From Flavobacteriales bacterium UBA7519 (GTDB lineage: Bacteria; Bacteroidota; Bacteroidia; Flavobacteriales; Weeksellaceae): a DNA stretch of 8,669 bases. Both the position numbers and the translations under genes were made by a program. Under the pieces are notes generated by a model that saw only the letters and a program-made list of their open reading frames with translations, was not told the DNA's origin and made no database searches. Positions 1,266 to 8,669 of this stretch are shown here, in pieces (the first letter of the stretch is position 1; the number at the start of each line of letters is the position of its first letter). The DNA lies in contig DLND01000189.1 of the NCBI GenBank assembly GCA_002476905.1, positions 1 through 8,669 on the forward strand, given 5' to 3'.

Positions 1266-2831
1266 ATGGCAACGAAAACAGCTGCAAAAACTAAAAGTAC
1301 CGAAGAAATCCTCTGGGATTCTGCCAATAAATTAAGAGGTTCCGTGGAGCCTTCCGAATACAAACACGTGGTGTTGAGTCTGATCTTCCTCAAGTTTGCG
1401 AATGACAAATTTTTGAGAAGAAGACAGGAACTCATCAACGAACACAAAGAAGCTTTCCTGGATATTCCGGAATTTTATCAGGCGGAAAATGTATTTTATC
1501 TTCCTGAAGAATCGCGCTGGACTTTCATTATGAAAAATGCCAAGCAGGAAAATATCACATTGATAGTAGATTCCGCCCTGAAAACCATTGAGCGTACCAA
1601 TAAATCTCTGGAAGGCGCATTGCCAGACAATTATTTTTCACGTCTTGGGCTGGATCAGTCTAAGTTCTCGGCTTTGCTGGATACGATTAACAATATTGAT
1701 ACCCTGAAAGATGAAGCCCACGATATTGTAGGGCGCGTTTATGAATATTTCCTGAGCAAATTTGCCATTGCCGAAGGGAAAGGAAAAGGGGAATTCTATA
1801 CCCCAAAATCGATTGTTAATCTGATTGCAGAAATGATAGAACCCTACAAAGGGAAAATCTATGACCCTTCCTGTGGTTCGGGCGGGATGTTTGTACAGTC
1901 GCTGAAGTTTATTGAGAAGCATAAAGGAAACAAAAAAGATATTTCTATCTACGGTCAGGAGCTTACCAATACCACCTACAAATTGGCGAAGATGAACCTT
2001 GCCATCCGTGGAATTTCTTCTAATTTGGGGAACAAAGCGGCGGATACTTTTGGCGATGACCAGCACAAAGATCTGAAAGCCGACTACATAATGGCGAACC
2101 CACCTTTTAATTTAAAAGACTGGCGCGCGGACAGCGAACTGACTACCGACCCAAGATGGGCAGGCTATGAAGTGCCACCAAAATCAAATGCCAATTATGC
2201 GTGGATCTTGAATATGATCTCCAAGCTTTCTCAGAATGGCGTTGCCGGATTTATTTTGGCAAATGGTGCTTTGAGTGGTGGTGGCGAAGAATATAAAATC
2301 CGGAAACAGATTATTGAAAATGATTTGGTAGAAGCCGTTGTGATTTTACCACAAGATATGTTTTATTCTACCAATATTTCGGTAACACTTTGGATTCTGA
2401 ACCGCAATAAAAATGAGCGAACTTTTGAAGTAAACGATGGTGTAAAAAAGTACCGTGACCGCAAAGGCGAAGTGCTGTTTATGGATCTGCGTCAGAAAGG
2501 TGAACCGTTTGAAAAGAAATATATTCAGTTTGGCGAAGAAGAGATTACGGCTATTGCCACCCATTATCACAACTGGCAACAGCAAGACTGGAAAGAAACG
2601 TATCAGGATATTCCTGAATATTCTTACAGTGCGACTCTGGAAGACATCCGTAAAAAAGATTATTCTTTAGTACCCAGTAAATATATTGAATTCGTCAACC
2701 GAGATGAAAGTCTGGATTATAACGAGCAGATGCAAAGTTTGCAGGCAGATTTGAAAGATTTATTTGAACAGGAAAACCAATTGAAAGAAGAGGTTTCCAA
2801 TGTTTTTAAAACTTTGGGCTATGAGTTATAG
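1266..2831 (+). CDS. hsdM: Type I restriction-modification DNA methyltransferase subunit HsdM
   Basis: This is the N6-adenine DNA methyltransferase subunit. Two HsdM with one HsdS form the modification enzyme, which protects host DNA using S-adenosylmethionine, and the same trimer is the core onto which HsdR assembles. It has 521 residues, the usual length (E. coli HsdM has 529). Residues about 10-140 form the helical HsdM N-terminal domain. EFYTPKSIV (176-184) is the typical entry to the catalytic domain. DPSCGSGGMF (200-209) is the SAM-binding motif I, and NPPF (278-281) is the catalytic motif IV of gamma-type amino methyltransferases. The last 30 residues are a charged amphipathic helix of the kind that contacts HsdS. 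All key residues are intact and the frame is uninterrupted. The stop codon overlaps the start of hsdS, implying coupled translation. G+C is about 48% in a sampled line, like hsdR and unlike the KAP gene. Confidence 0.97.
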   Translation: MATKTAAKTKSTEEILWDSANKLRGSVEPSEYKHVVLSLIFLKFANDKFLRRRQELINEHKEAFLDIPEFYQAENVFYLPEESRWTFIMKNAKQENITLIVDSALKTIERTNKSLEGALPDNYFSRLGLDQSKFSALLDTINNIDTLKDEAHDIVGRVYEYFLSKFAIAEGKGKGEFYTPKSIVNLIAEMIEPYKGKIYDPSCGSGGMFVQSLKFIEKHKGNKKDISIYGQELTNTTYKLAKMNLAIRGISSNLGNKAADTFGDDQHKDLKADYIMANPPFNLKDWRADSELTTDPRWAGYEVPPKSNANYAWILNMISKLSQNGVAGFILANGALSGGGEEYKIRKQIIENDLVEAVVILPQDMFYSTNISVTLWILNRNKNERTFEVNDGVKKYRDRKGEVLFMDLRQKGEPFEKKYIQFGEEEITAIATHYHNWQQQDWKETYQDIPEYSYSATLEDIRKKDYSLVPSKYIEFVNRDESLDYNEQMQSLQADLKDLFEQENQLKEEVSNVFKTLGYEL

Positions 2832-3960
2832 AAAAGTTGGAGATTTGATTCAAGTTGTTGATGAGCGCAACAGAGATTTGGCGATTACGCATCTTGTGGG
2901 ACTAACTATTAATAAAAAGTTTATACCGTCTGTCGCAAATATTATTGGGACGGATATGGCAAATTATAAGTTGATTAGAAAAAACCAATTTGCTTGTAGT
3001 ACAATGCAGGTTCGCAGAGATAAAAAAATGCCAATAGCTTTACTAAAGGAATTTGATATCGCTATTATTTCGCAAGCGTATCCTGTTTTTGAAGTCATTG
3101 ATGAAAATGTGATTTTGCCTGATTATCTGATGTTGTGGTTTTCCCGTTCAGAATTTGACAGAGAAGCTTGCTTTCACGCTGTTGGCGGTGTGAGGGGAAG
3201 TCTTGAATGGGAAGACTTTTGTGGAATGCAACTTCCGGTTCCATCCATCGAAGAACAGCGACAAATTGTTAATCAATACCAAAGCATAGCCAACAAAATA
3301 AAAGTCAACAAGCAGATTTGCGAAAAGTTGGAAGCTACTGCGCAGGCTTTGTATTACAATATGGTTAAAGAAAACCATTGTAAAGAATCAATATTAAAAG
3401 ATTTCTGCTCATTTCAAGAGGGTTATGTAAATCCTTCTCAAGAACATTCAAAATATTTTGATGGGAATATTAAATGGCTAAGAGCAAATGATGTTAACGG
3501 AGGTTTTATCTTAGATACAAGTAGAAAATTAACTGAAGAGGGTTTTAATAGTGCAGGAACGAGTGCATTGCTTTTCTCTCCACAAACAATTATTATTACA
3601 AAATCGGGAACAATAGGACGAATCGGAATCTTATGTGACTATATGTGTGGAAATAGGGCAGTAATAAATATAAAACCAAATGAAGAATGTAATTTGCCTT
3701 TTATATTTTTTGTATTAAGAACTAAATATAATGAGTTAATTGATATGGCTGTAGGCAGTGCTCAAGCGAATTTATACGTCCCAATTTTAGCATCTTTGAA
3801 AATAAATACACCTTTAAAAGAAGTTTTAAATCAATTCAATTTAGTTGGAAATAAACTTCTAGAATTAATAAAATCAAAAACTCAAGAAAACCAAAAACTC
3901 ACCCAACTACAAAGTTTGTTGTTGTCGCGGTTGGCGGTTGGGGAGGAAGTTAGTATTTAA
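2821..3960 (+). CDS. hsdS: Type I restriction-modification specificity subunit HsdS
   Basis: This is the DNA-recognition subunit. Two target-recognition domains each read one half of a bipartite site and are held apart by conserved helices. Domain 1 covers residues 1 to about 142 and includes the stretches RNRDL and KKFIPSVANIIGTDMANYK, typical of a HsdS type common in Bacteroidota. The central conserved helix is about 143-182 (EEQRQIV onward). Domain 2 is about 187-335, and the distal conserved helix ends with KLTQLQSLLLSRLA. I chose ATG 2821 (MSYRKVGDL, 379 aa, 11-base overlap with hsdM) because family members begin at this point. ATG 2800 in the same frame adds seven residues and has a GAAGAGG six bases upstream, so it remains possible. 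Domain 2 is strikingly A+T-rich (11/60 G+C from 3661) while the final stretch returns to 27/60, a sign of recognition-domain exchange. The exact target site cannot be read from the sequence. Confidence 0.93.
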   Translation: MSYRKVGDLIQVVDERNRDLAITHLVGLTINKKFIPSVANIIGTDMANYKLIRKNQFACSTMQVRRDKKMPIALLKEFDIAIISQAYPVFEVIDENVILPDYLMLWFSRSEFDREACFHAVGGVRGSLEWEDFCGMQLPVPSIEEQRQIVNQYQSIANKIKVNKQICEKLEATAQALYYNMVKENHCKESILKDFCSFQEGYVNPSQEHSKYFDGNIKWLRANDVNGGFILDTSRKLTEEGFNSAGTSALLFSPQTIIITKSGTIGRIGILCDYMCGNRAVINIKPNEECNLPFIFFVLRTKYNELIDMAVGSAQANLYVPILASLKINTPLKEVLNQFNLVGNKLLELIKSKTQENQKLTQLQSLLLSRLAVGEEVSI

Positions 3961-3993: not shown

Positions 3994-6900
3994 ATGGCAG
4001 AGAATTCTACAAACGAGAAGTTATTAAATTTTCTAACAAATCAACCTCTAGGTGAAGATTTATTTGAAAATAAATCACAAGATAAAATAGCGAAAGTTAT
4101 TAGCGACAGAATTATCAATGATCCAGAATTTAAGATTATTGGAATTGATGGTGAGTGGGGTTCTGGTAAAAGTAACTTGGTAAGACTACTTGATAAAAAG
4201 CTTGAAAGTACTCATAAATTTTTTGTTTATGATGTTTGGGGACATCAAGAAGATGAACAAAGAAAATCAATACTGGTAGAATTAACAGAATTTATTAAGA
4301 ACGACCCCAACTTATTAAAACAAGGAGATAAAAAAAGCTGGGATAATAAGTTGAAAATTCTATTAGCTAAGTCAAAGGAAACAACTACTATTAATCAGCC
4401 ATATCTCAGTATTGGATTTATTTTCAGTCTATTATCAATTATCTATATTCCTACTGTAAATGTTTTTAAAGATTCTATAAAAGATTTCTTAGAAATTGAG
4501 TCTTGGTTTTGGAAGATTGTCCTAGTCACATTTCCATTAATTATTGTTGTAGGAATCTATCTTTGGAATGTTATAGGAAATTGGCGACAAAAAAATGGAT
4601 TTTGGAATTCTTTCAAATTATCCGCTGAGGAGACTTTTCAGGTTTATACAAATAAACAAAAAGAAGAAACAAAGATTGAGACAGTATCTGAAGATCAGCC
4701 ATCAGTCAGAGATTTTCAAAATTGGATGAATGATATTAATGATGATCTTAATAAAAAAGTTGTAATTGTTTTTGATAATTTTGATAGATTACCGAAAAAG
4801 CATATCCTTAATATCTGGTCATCTTTACATATCTTTTTTGCGGAAAAATCATATTCAAATATTAAAGTCGTTATTCCTTTCGATCGAGAGCACATTCAAA
4901 ATGCCTTTAATGAATTAAATGGTAGAGATACTAAATTTGGTGATGATTATGTAAATAAAACTTTTGATATTGTATTTAGAATTACTTTGCCAATTATGTC
5001 TAATTGGAAAAAATTTTTTACTGATCAATGGAAAAAGGCATTTACAAATTATGACGAGGATGAGTTAAGATTGGTTGTACAGGTTTATGAGTTTCTAAAT
5101 CGTAGAATAACACCACGAGAAATAATATCTTTTATTAATGAAATACTCACAATCAAATTATTAGACGACAGCTTCAAAGAAAGATATGTTGCAATTTTTG
5201 TACTAAAGAAGGATGATATTTTAGAAAATCCTCTAGATGCTATTACGAATCTAGAATACCTAAAAGGTCTACAATCGTTTTATAGCAACGATAAAGATTT
5301 TGCAAAACAATTAACTGCAATAGTTTACCATATTGATGTAGAAAATGCAATAGAACTAATATACACTCAAGAGTTGAAAGATTCAATGAATAAAAATGAT
5401 GTAAAACAATTTAATACTATATGCAAATCTGAGTTTATTGATTCAATCTTTAATTCTGCGATTACTGAATTGGAGATTTTAGAAAATCCAATATTAACAT
5501 TGTCAAAATTAGATGAAGATACAAATCTTTCTAAGTTACATATAAGTCAAGCGTGGGATCTATTTTATAGTAAAATATTAAAACTTGATATTGTAAGAAA
5601 ATTAGAAATTGAAAATTGGCAAGTGACTTTATTGAGAAATATTTCTGATGATACATATTTATCTAAATTATTGGCAAATTATTATACTTTAATAGATGAC
5701 AGTAATATAGAAAACTATGCAGATTTGATAGACAATATCTCAAAAGATTTAGGTGATGATAGAATTAATGCTTCTTTAAATGAAAAAACAATCTCTGCTA
5801 GTAATTTTATAAAATTAATTGAATACAAAGGTGATGATTATGAAAAATATAAATTAAAAACAGATTTTTATCAGCTGGATTTGCATCTCTCCAAATTAAA
5901 AATTGACGAAATTTTTGAATTAGAGCATACAGATATACTTGCTAAAACAACAAAATTTAGTCAATATCGAGAATCGCTAAAAACTGAACTGAACAACTTT
6001 ATAGATCAAAATAATATTGAATTAGCAAATAATACTTTGATTAAAATAAAAGAAACTGTGAAAGAAACTGCTGATTTGAAAAACTTATTAGAAGATGTTA
6101 AGGTTTATACTATTTTTACTAATAATACATCATCAGATTTACCAATTATAAACGAATTAATTGCGATGAGAATCGCTAAAGGAAATACATTCAATACCTC
6201 CTATAAAAGTACTTTTAATAATGTTCTTAATACGGAAGATGAAGAAAGAGCTAATAAAATTGCACAAATAATTTTGCAGTACATCTCTTATGGTGAATTA
6301 CTTTTATTATCTAAGACATTTGAAAATGCACCATTGTTTAGGCAGATTATTTTGTCACTGTTTCCGTTAACTTCTGTGAAAAAGACTGCAAATATTATTG
6401 ATTTAATAAACAAATATCAAGAAATAAAAGAAAGTTTAAAAATAGTTGATAATGAATTAATTACCGAATTAAATAAGTGGAAAATCAACAAGGATAATCT
6501 TGATGTAAATAAACTAGATGATGAATTTCTTAAAGATTCCATTGCCAACTTAGACTTTAAAATAACAAAAGATTTCTTGGAGGTTTTTAATAGTGATTTT
6601 AAAAATTTTTATAAAGATACTTATGAAACTGTTTTTGATGATGAATCAGATATTCATTTTAAATATTTTGAATATTTAGAGCTGGAAAGTCTAACTCAGG
6701 AATCGTTGGATGTATATGAAAATAAATTTATTGAATTATTAAAATCTAGTAATACAATTGATAAACAATGGTGGAAGATTCTGAAAAAGTATGACGAAAA
6801 CAATGCTGACCTTTCTGTTGTAAATACATTAAAAAATATTAGAGACCAAATTTTAAATTCTTCAATAACCTTAAATTTAGAAGTTGCAAAATTAATTTTA

Positions 6901-7170
6901 CCATATTTCTTAAAATATGATTTATTAAGTAATCAAAAGGATATATTTAGATTAATTATCAAGAACGAATTTTTATCTGATAGCGATTTTGTGAAATTTC
7001 TGATTTCAAATTCAGATTTTGCTAAAAATCTTTATCAGCAGGCGCCGACAACTGATAAAGATGGCTTTCGAAATACTATTAATGAAAAAAGAGAATCTAA
7101 CGATCTGCTCGAACAGTTAGCAAAAAAAATTGATATTAGAAAACCAAAAGGAAATATGGAAAATCAATGA
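3994..7170 (+). CDS. KAP-family P-loop NTPase, membrane-anchored, R-M-linked
   Basis: This encodes 1058 residues. The Walker A loop is GEWGSGKS (53-60) and Walker B is VVIVFDNFDRL (256-266, with D261 and D264). Between them lie two hydrophobic segments (about 137-157 and 172-194), the paired membrane insertion that defines most bacterial KAP NTPases. Further on are VVIPFDREH (292-300), fitting the strand after Walker B, and TPREIISFINEI (373-384), fitting the conserved Arg and helix at the end of the NTPase domain. The remaining ~650 residues are charged, apparently all-helical, and contain no domain I can name. KAP proteins couple nucleotide hydrolysis to membrane-associated complexes; PifA of plasmid F, a member, blocks phage T7. 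The gene lies 33 A-rich bases after hsdS and its TGA overlaps the hsdR ATG, so it is embedded in the operon. Its very low G+C (12/60 from 5641) points to separate acquisition. A role in phage defence is inferred from position and family. Confidence 0.88.
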   Translation: MAENSTNEKLLNFLTNQPLGEDLFENKSQDKIAKVISDRIINDPEFKIIGIDGEWGSGKSNLVRLLDKKLESTHKFFVYDVWGHQEDEQRKSILVELTEFIKNDPNLLKQGDKKSWDNKLKILLAKSKETTTINQPYLSIGFIFSLLSIIYIPTVNVFKDSIKDFLEIESWFWKIVLVTFPLIIVVGIYLWNVIGNWRQKNGFWNSFKLSAEETFQVYTNKQKEETKIETVSEDQPSVRDFQNWMNDINDDLNKKVVIVFDNFDRLPKKHILNIWSSLHIFFAEKSYSNIKVVIPFDREHIQNAFNELNGRDTKFGDDYVNKTFDIVFRITLPIMSNWKKFFTDQWKKAFTNYDEDELRLVVQVYEFLNRRITPREIISFINEILTIKLLDDSFKERYVAIFVLKKDDILENPLDAITNLEYLKGLQSFYSNDKDFAKQLTAIVYHIDVENAIELIYTQELKDSMNKNDVKQFNTICKSEFIDSIFNSAITELEILENPILTLSKLDEDTNLSKLHISQAWDLFYSKILKLDIVRKLEIENWQVTLLRNISDDTYLSKLLANYYTLIDDSNIENYADLIDNISKDLGDDRINASLNEKTISASNFIKLIEYKGDDYEKYKLKTDFYQLDLHLSKLKIDEIFELEHTDILAKTTKFSQYRESLKTELNNFIDQNNIELANNTLIKIKETVKETADLKNLLEDVKVYTIFTNNTSSDLPIINELIAMRIAKGNTFNTSYKSTFNNVLNTEDEERANKIAQIILQYISYGELLLLSKTFENAPLFRQIILSLFPLTSVKKTANIIDLINKYQEIKESLKIVDNELITELNKWKINKDNLDVNKLDDEFLKDSIANLDFKITKDFLEVFNSDFKNFYKDTYETVFDDESDIHFKYFEYLELESLTQESLDVYENKFIELLKSSNTIDKQWWKILKKYDENNADLSVVNTLKNIRDQILNSSITLNLEVAKLILPYFLKYDLLSNQKDIFRLIIKNEFLSDSDFVKFLISNSDFAKNLYQQAPTTDKDGFRNTINEKRESNDLLEQLAKKIDIRKPKGNMENQ

Positions 7171-8669
7171 AATACACCGAATCCCAATTAGAAAAATCAT
7201 TCATCCATCTTCTGAAAGACGAAGGTTATGCGTATGTAAATGGCAAAGACGTAGTTCGGGCATCGCAACAGGAGGTTTTGATTCGGGAAGACCTGAGTGA
7301 TTTTCTGCTGTCCCGTTATCCCGATTTGGAAACCATAGAATTGGAAACACTGATCAATGAATTGGCGTATCAACCAGCATCTAATCTGTATGACAGCAAT
7401 AAATACATTGGCAAACTCTTGGCAGACGGTCTGATTTTTAAGAGAAACAATCCTTCTAAAAAAGATTTGCACATCCGTTACATTGATATAGATTCAACCA
7501 GTCTTTTTACCACCAATCGGTTTAAGATTGTAAACCAGCTGGAGATTCAAGGAAAAGAATTACGGATTCCAGATTTGATTCTGTATATCAACGGGATTCC
7601 GGTGGTGGTTTTTGAGTTTAAAACAACTATAGAAGAAGAGATTACGATTTATAATGCTTACAAACAACTGAGCATCCGCTACAGAAGAGATATTCCGGAA
7701 CTGATGAAATACAATGCGTTCTGCATCATCAGCGATGGCGTGAACAACAAAGCCGGTTCTCTGTTTGCGCCTTACGATTTTTTCTACGGTTGGCATAAAA
7801 TAACAGGCGAAGAAAAGAAAGCACTGACGGGAATTCATACCGCCACATCCATTGTCCACGGAATGCTGAACAGGGAAAGGCTTTGTGATATTCTGCATCA
7901 TTTCATCTGGTTTCCCGATACGACTAGAAAAGAAGAAAAGATATTGTGCCGTTACCCGCAGTACTATGCTGCCAACAAACTGTTTGACAATATCCAAAAG
8001 CACCGCAAACCGGAAGGCGACGGAAAAGGCGGCACCTATTTCGGAGCAACAGGTTGCGGAAAAAGTTATACGATGCTTTATCTGTCGAGACTGCTGATGC
8101 GTTCCACACAATTGGCAAGTCCGACCATCATTATTATCTCCGACCGTACCGATCTGGATGACCAGCTGTCGAGAGATTTTACCAATGCCAAGGATTTTAT
8201 TGGCGATGAAAATATCATCAACATAGAGTCCAGAGCCGATCTTCGTGCAAGACTGAGAGGCAGAGAAAGTGGCGGTGTTTTTCTGACGACGGTACAGAAA
8301 TTTGCGGAAGACAGCGAGATTTTGAGCGACCGCAACAATATCATCTGTATTTCCGATGAAGCCCACCGCTCGCAGGTGAATCTGGATTTGAAAGTCCGCA
8401 TTGATGAAGATGGTGTGAAAAAGTCGTATGGTTTTGCGAAATACCTTCACGACTCACTTCCGAATGCGACGTATGTAGGCTTTACAGGAACACCGATTGA
8501 TAAGACTTTGGATGTCTTTGGCCCTGTGGTAGATTCCTACACGATGTTTGAATCGGTGGTGGATGAAATTACGGTTCGTCTGGTGTATGAAGGCCGTGCT
8601 GCAAAAGTCAATCTGAACCATTCTAAAGTGGTAGAGATAGAAAAGTACTATCAAAATGCGGTTGCAGAA
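7167..8669 (+). CDS. hsdR: Type I restriction enzyme HsdR, 5' part (cut by window end)
   Basis: This is the motor and nuclease subunit: it binds the HsdM-HsdS core, pulls DNA using ATP and cuts unmethylated DNA far from the target. The first 501 codons are present and open to the last base; HsdR proteins are usually around 1000 residues, so about half is missing only because the window stops. The N-terminal nuclease domain shows IPD (D136), FEFK (E150, K152) as the PD-(D/E)xK site, followed by Q167 and Y172, resembling the Q...Y motif. The superfamily 2 helicase motor shows Walker A GATGCGKS (293-300), SDRTDLDDQL (325-334), DEAH (397-400) and GFTGTP (438-443). ATG 7167 shares ATGA with the stop of the KAP gene, favouring coupled translation, and the protein N-terminus MKYTESQLEK fits the family. 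All catalytic residues in view are intact, so the enzyme is probably active. Confidence 0.95.
   Translation, partial: MKYTESQLEKSFIHLLKDEGYAYVNGKDVVRASQQEVLIREDLSDFLLSRYPDLETIELETLINELAYQPASNLYDSNKYIGKLLADGLIFKRNNPSKKDLHIRYIDIDSTSLFTTNRFKIVNQLEIQGKELRIPDLILYINGIPVVVFEFKTTIEEEITIYNAYKQLSIRYRRDIPELMKYNAFCIISDGVNNKAGSLFAPYDFFYGWHKITGEEKKALTGIHTATSIVHGMLNRERLCDILHHFIWFPDTTRKEEKILCRYPQYYAANKLFDNIQKHRKPEGDGKGGTYFGATGCGKSYTMLYLSRLLMRSTQLASPTIIIISDRTDLDDQLSRDFTNAKDFIGDENIINIESRADLRARLRGRESGGVFLTTVQKFAEDSEILSDRNNIICISDEAHRSQVNLDLKVRIDEDGVKKSYGFAKYLHDSLPNATYVGFTGTPIDKTLDVFGPVVDSYTMFESVVDEITVRLVYEGRAAKVNLNHSKVVEIEKYYQNAVAE

Follow-up and report, generated by a model that had tools for sequence, protein, structure and literature searches.

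The window, i.e., the 8,669-nucleotide (nt) stretch of contig DLND01000189.1 from Flavobacteriales bacterium UBA7519 (GenBank assembly accession number GCA_002476905.1), harbors on its plus strand a type I restriction-modification (R-M) operon into which a gene for a KAP-family NTPase is embedded. The gene order hsdM-hsdS-KAP-hsdR, given in a preliminary description of the locus, was confirmed by the map of open reading frames (ORFs) and by Pfam domains. The type I methyltransferase gene hsdM (positions 1266 to 2831; N6_Mtase, 348.6 bits, and HsdM_N, 76.5 bits) is followed by the specificity subunit gene hsdS (2821 to 3960; Methylase_S, 75.7 bits), whose ORF is open from position 2800 and whose likely start is the ATG at 2821 within the 3' end of hsdM, an overlap read from the nucleotides. 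The KAP gene (3994 to 7170; 26% GC) encodes 1,058 amino acids with a KAP_NTPase (PF07693) match of 80 bits at residues 31 to 387, far above the curated cutoff of 20, and the 5' half of hsdR (7167 to 8669; HSDR_N, 106.7 bits, and SWI2_SNF2, 182.5 bits) is visible for its first 501 codons up to the window end at 8669. HsdM, HsdS, and HsdR (the latter to residue 501) thus all carry the family domains of a type I R-M system. The KAP stop and the hsdR start share the ATGA at 7167 to 7170, as had been described, and the unit was rightly said to lack an internal terminator: no terminator-like site was found on the plus strand from the hsdS start to the hsdR start. Such plus-strand sites occur before hsdM, inside hsdM, and inside hsdR; the one upstream of the operon (842 to 868, with a shorter one within it), an 11-pair stem followed by a T run that matches the consensus only, lies behind a DUF6266 gene (196 to 837). 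The GC content is 40% in hsdM but only 29% over positions 3355 to 3862, the second variable (target-recognition) part of hsdS, and 26% in the KAP gene, and it amounts to 43% in hsdR; it is this dip that gives the variable part and the KAP gene the look of an inserted block.

The gap between hsdS and hsdR is an exchangeable cargo slot, in which other genes replace KAP in near-identical operons. In alignments of the window with 16 near operons, DNA identity runs through hsdM and on into hsdS, is lost near position 3354, and in 14 of the 16 is back at 3862 to 3893, toward the end of hsdS, which defines the conserved 3' end of hsdS (3863 to 3960) as the left boundary of the slot; the hsdS gene of locus L072 matches the window throughout, and the last hsdS stretch of L077 does not match. 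On the right side, identity is lost at the cargo in the 13 near operons with a different content and resumes at the hsdR start codon (7161 to 7167), i.e., at the ATGA overlap. The last 30 nt of hsdS are alike in most of 14 operons (divergent in L063, L066, and L102, and partly so in L071 and L073), and of the 13 near operons with a located hsdR start (L062 not being among them), 12 show identical first 30 nt and L072 differs by a single change, while the 36 nt before hsdR vary with the cargo. In the nearest genome compared, G001 (L063), the DUF6266 gene upstream is again present (92% identical at the DNA level) and the operon is the same, but its slot is filled by an AriA-like and a transposase-like gene in place of KAP. 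The HsdS protein of L072 is 94% identical to that of the window, yet the cargo is another one. Three further loci (L078, L079, and L080) share about 97% identity across AbiE and the visible part of hsdR, and upstream of AbiE they contain an AAA_13-type gene (L078), a KAP gene (L079), and a NACHT gene among others (L080). Homologous recombination between the conserved arms, hsdM/hsdS on one side and hsdR on the other, is probably the main way in which the cargo moves.

Loading of this slot is nearly constant in the family sample, where "family" and "phylum" denote those of G001 and both genome samples were drawn evenly from larger groups. The window-type HsdR was present in 43 of 296 family genomes, all 43 loci were retrieved, and 41 in which a single contig contains both hsdM and hsdR were kept (L093 and L104, without hsdM on the contig, were dropped). 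Apart from hsdS, 40 of these 41 loci have one or more additional ORFs of at least 100 residues between hsdM and hsdR, and only L103 is empty. For the cargo, all ORFs between these two genes were collected mechanically with the omission of hsdS-like ORFs; one ORF of L075, of 351 amino acids, lies between hsdM and hsdS. In the phylum sample, HsdR matches were obtained in 16 genomes including the already counted G001; among the other 15 loci, which were all retrieved and contain no KAP gene, 12 have all three hsd genes and 3 have no hsdM on the contig. Seven of the 12 are loaded (L131 to L136 and L141) and five are empty (L137, L138, and L143 to L145), the HsdR proteins of L143 to L145 being only 39% identical to that of L001. 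With 5 of 12 phylum loci empty, constant loading is a trait of the family sample and not of the whole phylum. KAP itself was found in 7 of the 41 family operons. Since type I enzymes reportedly occur at the cell envelope, KAP might be a membrane NTPase that serves the restriction enzyme in a housekeeping or regulatory way, e.g., in its membrane localization; nevertheless, 34 of the 41 family operons manage without KAP, so that restriction probably does not require it, and such a non-defense role is highly improbable.

Most of the loaded slots include a gene with a defense-type match. The 146 cargo ORFs (137 from the 40 loaded loci and 9 from named loci) fell into 62 blastp clusters; defense labels are family matches of cluster representatives that were passed on within the clusters, and the list of defense types is our reading of Pfam and PADLOC names. 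It comprises a PrrC/RloC-type AAA_13 protein (L062; PADLOC models PDC-S06, 881 bits, and PrrC, 40 bits), GmrSD, an AriA-like AAA_15 protein (252 bits), an OLD-like AAA plus Toprim protein, TIR with the ThsB model (371 bits) and SLOG, SIR2-pAgo (1,365 bits), DRT2 (472 bits), HerA (565 bits), NACHT, DUF4062-STAND, HamA beside a DEAD helicase (our label "HamB-like"), AbiEi/AbiEii, Fic, HipA, Schlafen-AlbA, and PDDEXK_4. At least one defense-type gene is present in 37 of the 40 loaded loci (all but L094, L095, and L098), a number that falls to 32 if the weaker labels (DEAD helicase, partial Ppl, Fic, HipA, PDDEXK_4, and AlbA_2) are omitted. With PADLOC at 1e-10, 9 of 10 representatives were matched, which had been picked after the Pfam results and not at random. 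AAA_13 was recorded in the cargo of L062 and L101, and the sister operons L062 and L069, whose HsdR proteins share 95% and 94% identity with that of L001, carry the PrrC/RloC-type gene in the slot (L069 by membership in the same cluster as L062). The proposed analogy to the slot of prrC, which lies between hsdS and hsdR in the locus EcoprrI, therefore holds with respect to position.

Small transposase-like proteins are encoded in 8 of the 40 loaded slots (L063, L071, L083, L089, L091, L092, L095, and L102), mostly adjoining hsdR. Y1_Tnp matches are borderline or below the threshold in some members of the cluster and missing in L071, and a conserved MPNHxH motif gives these proteins the look of REP-associated transposases; they might help the cargo to move. 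A GGGCGAAT-type sequence follows hsdS in L063, L073, and L102. Large slot proteins of 684, 493, 598, and 987 residues (L090:8910-10964, L080:8255-9736, L080:6408-8204, and L084:10034-12997) represent candidates for unknown defense genes: the 684-residue protein had no match in Pfam or PADLOC, the 493-residue protein had none in Pfam, and the 987-residue protein showed partial matches only.

Of the 131 cargo ORFs with 100 residues or more, 127 are co-oriented with the operon, as against 131 of the 198 ORFs found upstream of hsdM, and the anti-oriented ones are confined to L094 and L098 (two each). In 32 of 40 loci, the stop codon of the last codirectional cargo gene is located at most 60 nt from the start of the hsdR ORF, overlaps included. 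This common strand and the position mostly just before hsdR suggest that the cargo is coexpressed with the operon. The same data bear on the idea that KAP is a passive passenger, a defense gene that reached the slot only via the recombining arms and has a function unrelated to restriction or to the operon. The very mixed cargo, including small DUF and transposase-like genes, and the scattered positions of the KAP-bearing operons on the HsdR tree (7 changes, compared to a mean of 7.5 after shuffling) would fit a passenger, but the orientation and spacing of the cargo ORFs speak for shared expression, and we regard mere carriage as quite unlikely.

The KAP protein has the features of an NTPase that probably acts at the membrane. 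Its Walker A motif (GEWGSGKS, residues 53 to 60; positions 4150 to 4173) contains G53, G58, K59, and S60, which are invariant in 26 sequences, and D261 and N262 of the Walker B region (residues 256 to 264; 4759 to 4785) are invariant in 26 and in 35 sequences. Between the two motifs lies an insert (residues 131 to 200; 4384 to 4593) with two hydrophobic segments (Kyte-Doolittle centers 141 to 151 and 174 to 188), which are predicted to be transmembrane from hydropathy only. The C-terminal half is modeled by AlphaFold2 as an all-helical repeat region (residues 451 to 1046; 5344 to 7131), with a predicted local distance difference test score (pLDDT) per block of mostly about 90 from residue 460 onward. 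The gene is under purifying selection, and 264 homologues of the protein were found. No AAA_13 match was obtained with Pfam. Family membership and the two hydrophobic segments make a membrane-bound KAP NTPase in defense, as previously suggested, a reasonable assumption. The KAP genes look mosaic in comparisons of the window with P0008, P0009, P0012, and L074: residues 107 to 212 of P0008 and P0009 are 42% identical beside blocks of 80 to 86% and 72%, and in P0012 blocks of 49 to 86% identity are followed by a last tenth of 97%. A search of plasmids revealed no close KAP, and with a best match of only 28% identity across 77% of the protein, plasmid carriage of this gene was not shown.

Several known systems are comparable in part. 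The KAP-family protein Tmn has two transmembrane domains and blocks phages (PMC11846954), and the window protein is like it in family and in its two predicted membrane segments, a likeness by description only; the accessible description of Tmn does not mention an R-M operon (PMC11846954). Membrane modification leading to phage exclusion has been named as a possible function of KAP proteins (PMC3387028). The P-loop region is also common to PifA of plasmid F, which excludes phage T7 and to which the preliminary description had pointed. This comparison is valid at the level of the KAP family and does not extend beyond it, since the PADLOC model of PifA, of 720 positions, matched residues 31 to 109 only (43 bits), and in the absence of a full-length match an identification as PifA was rejected. 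PifA has been connected with membrane damage. An assignment to Qat was likewise discarded, because the QatA model matched partially (42 bits, best stretch at residues 236 to 330) and the adjacent genes are hsdS and hsdR rather than qatB, qatC, or qatD, with genes past hsdR falling outside the window. A fold likeness to RdrA of RADAR is suggestive at most, and no RdrB-like deaminase partner is located next to KAP, where hsdS and hsdR reside.

The genomic distribution of KAP relatives bears on the question of a special tie to the restriction complex, which the preliminary description had proposed. A scan of the genome collection yielded 31 loci with ORF maps of six ORFs on either side, whose neighbors were typed by blastp against the hsd proteins of the window and by Pfam scans of chosen neighbors. 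KAP is situated between hsdS and hsdR in 10 of them (L001, L002, L003, L009, L011, L014, L016, L017, L025, and L029), some of which hold further genes beside KAP; it stands beside type I genes in another order in three (L005, L006, and L012), after a weak hsdS-like ORF in L028, and after a type ISP gene in two (L013 and L020). In 11 loci (L004, L007, L018, L019, L021, L022, L023, L024, L026, L027, and L031) no type I or ISP gene was found near KAP (L018, L023, L024, and L031 being typed by blastp only), and the context was too small in four (L008, L010, L015, and L030). Among the family genomes, 14 of 296 carry KAP, seven in the slot and seven elsewhere, and no hsd relative was seen among the neighbors examined of the latter (on one side only in G281). 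KAP was detected in 5 of 395 phylum genomes and was not seen in the hsdS-hsdR slot in any of them, two of these genes (G420 and G523) being broken; in G281, G420, and G523 the gene lies near a contig end, so that only one side was seen. At most two candidates were scored per genome in both samples, so KAP may be undercounted, and the counts of 10 of 31 and 7 of 14 overlap, apparently by four loci. The recurrence of hsdS-KAP-hsdR in both counts is more than chance. On a tree of 34 KAP proteins (31 labeled), the slot label requires 9 changes, compared to a shuffled mean of 10.4, and 119 of 500 shuffles were as low as 9; judged from this tree, the slot KAPs are scattered and have no lineage of their own. 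A strict bond of KAP to this R-M type was rejected in view of the carriers outside the slot and the scattered tree, and the proposed tie was not supported, with other relatives beside type ISP genes, beside reordered type I genes, or without an R-M gene found nearby. A predominance of homologues away from hsd genes, which the preliminary description had named as grounds for refuting its proposal, was only half borne out.

Some of these loci deserve mention in their own right. KAP adjoins GmrSD in L026, and the relative in L004 (L004:5886-9763) directly follows reverse transcriptase and DNA polymerase A-type genes, with SduA downstream. In L013 and L020 (L013:6000-9792 and L020:6144-9873), the type ISP gene is followed by a small ORF (198 and 151 residues, without a Pfam match) and then by KAP. 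The loci L125 and L128, from genomes of different families (G035 and G635), share a distant KAP with an equal match score and a nearly identical ORF map, in which no hsd relative was seen beside KAP; this suggests a recent transfer.

A precedent for a functional coupling is PrrC, whose gene is embedded in the type I locus EcoprrI (PMC12707154). By analogy, KAP might be bound and silenced by HsdMSR and set free when a phage inhibits restriction, thus forming a second, lethal layer. The slot position shared with the prrC-type genes of the sister operons is consistent with such a guard, as are the ATGA overlap with hsdR in the window, the 4-base overlaps in L064, L068, and L074, and the use of the same slot by an AriA-like (PARIS-type) gene, as PrrC and PARIS are described as detecting the inhibition of restriction (PMC12707154, PMC2610378). 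However, PrrC orthologues are described as invariably linked to a type Ic R-M system and RloC as rarely linked (PMC2610378), and the linkage of KAP to type I R-M is not constant, with half of its family carriers linked, so that KAP lies between the two. It further differs from PrrC by its hydrophobic insert and the missing AAA_13 match, and both the scatter of slot KAPs on the tree and the related KAPs in different R-M types argue against silencing by this particular complex. It is the PrrC- and PARIS-type relatives in the slot that keep the guard model in consideration, and we judge it to be unlikely. A broader version, in which the slot of this Bacteroidota type I lineage would be a dedicated dock for swappable guards that are made together with HsdR and fire when restriction is blocked (anticodon-nuclease-type AAA_13, PARIS-type AriA, TIR, SIR2-Argonaute, and KAP as a new membrane-damaging guard), appears slightly less unlikely but still doubtful.

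We consider it probable, with some reservation, that KAP is an exchangeable slot cargo acting as an autonomous anti-phage protein. Its helical C-terminal half may sense a phage component, which would be the trigger in place of an inhibition of the restriction enzyme, and an NTP-driven assembly of KAP may then damage the membrane of the infected cell; the operon would be used for expression. Membrane damage is suggested by the kinship to Tmn within the KAP family, the hydrophobic insert, and the work on PifA. Several points weigh against this interpretation. The literature searched contained no phage or membrane experiment on this KAP, and the defense labels of its slot companions are family matches transferred within clusters, which cover 72 of 137 cargo ORFs when counted by gene, a count made within the slots only. 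The NTPase and membrane part of the AlphaFold2 model is weak (many blocks below 60; predicted template modeling score, 0.48), and a Foldseek search with the model returned no match at an E value of 0.001 or better, so that likeness of fold can be no more than suggestive. A sequence search of the PDB found no KAP relative at an E value of 0.05 or below, the best hit being a dephospho-CoA kinase at 0.091. Finally, the presence of half of the family KAP genes in the slot leaves room for a real coupling.

Extra ORFs between hsdS and hsdR are already known from the rlo (R-linked ORF) genes of Campylobacter jejuni, which include the GmrS-type RloF, and RloC-type genes have been found inserted in type I loci (PMC4619093, PMC5183652, PMC2610378). 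The window and its relatives share the intervening ORFs with rlo but differ in the Bacteroidota backbone, the loading of 40 of 41 family operons, the wider range of defense-type cargo, and the presence of KAP, which is not described for rlo in the accessible parts of the literature searched. As far as this partly covered literature goes, it holds no account of KAP between hsdS and hsdR, and three findings are new to it: KAP occurs as a cargo, one Bacteroidota lineage has its slot almost always loaded, and the defense types exchanged there span such a range.

The operon likely works as a dock for plug-in defenses. If the slot is a general dock of this kind, type I operons would carry many other systems besides restriction enzymes and could be mined for unknown defense genes, with the unnamed occupants of 684 and 987 residues as examples. 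The near-identical backbones with different cargo offer the opportunity to ask, by swaps within a fixed operon, whether restriction acts as the guard of the second layer or just as its carrier. They also provide a natural set of membrane KAP NTPases, a group exemplified by Tmn, whose mechanism is described as unexplored in the accessible literature.

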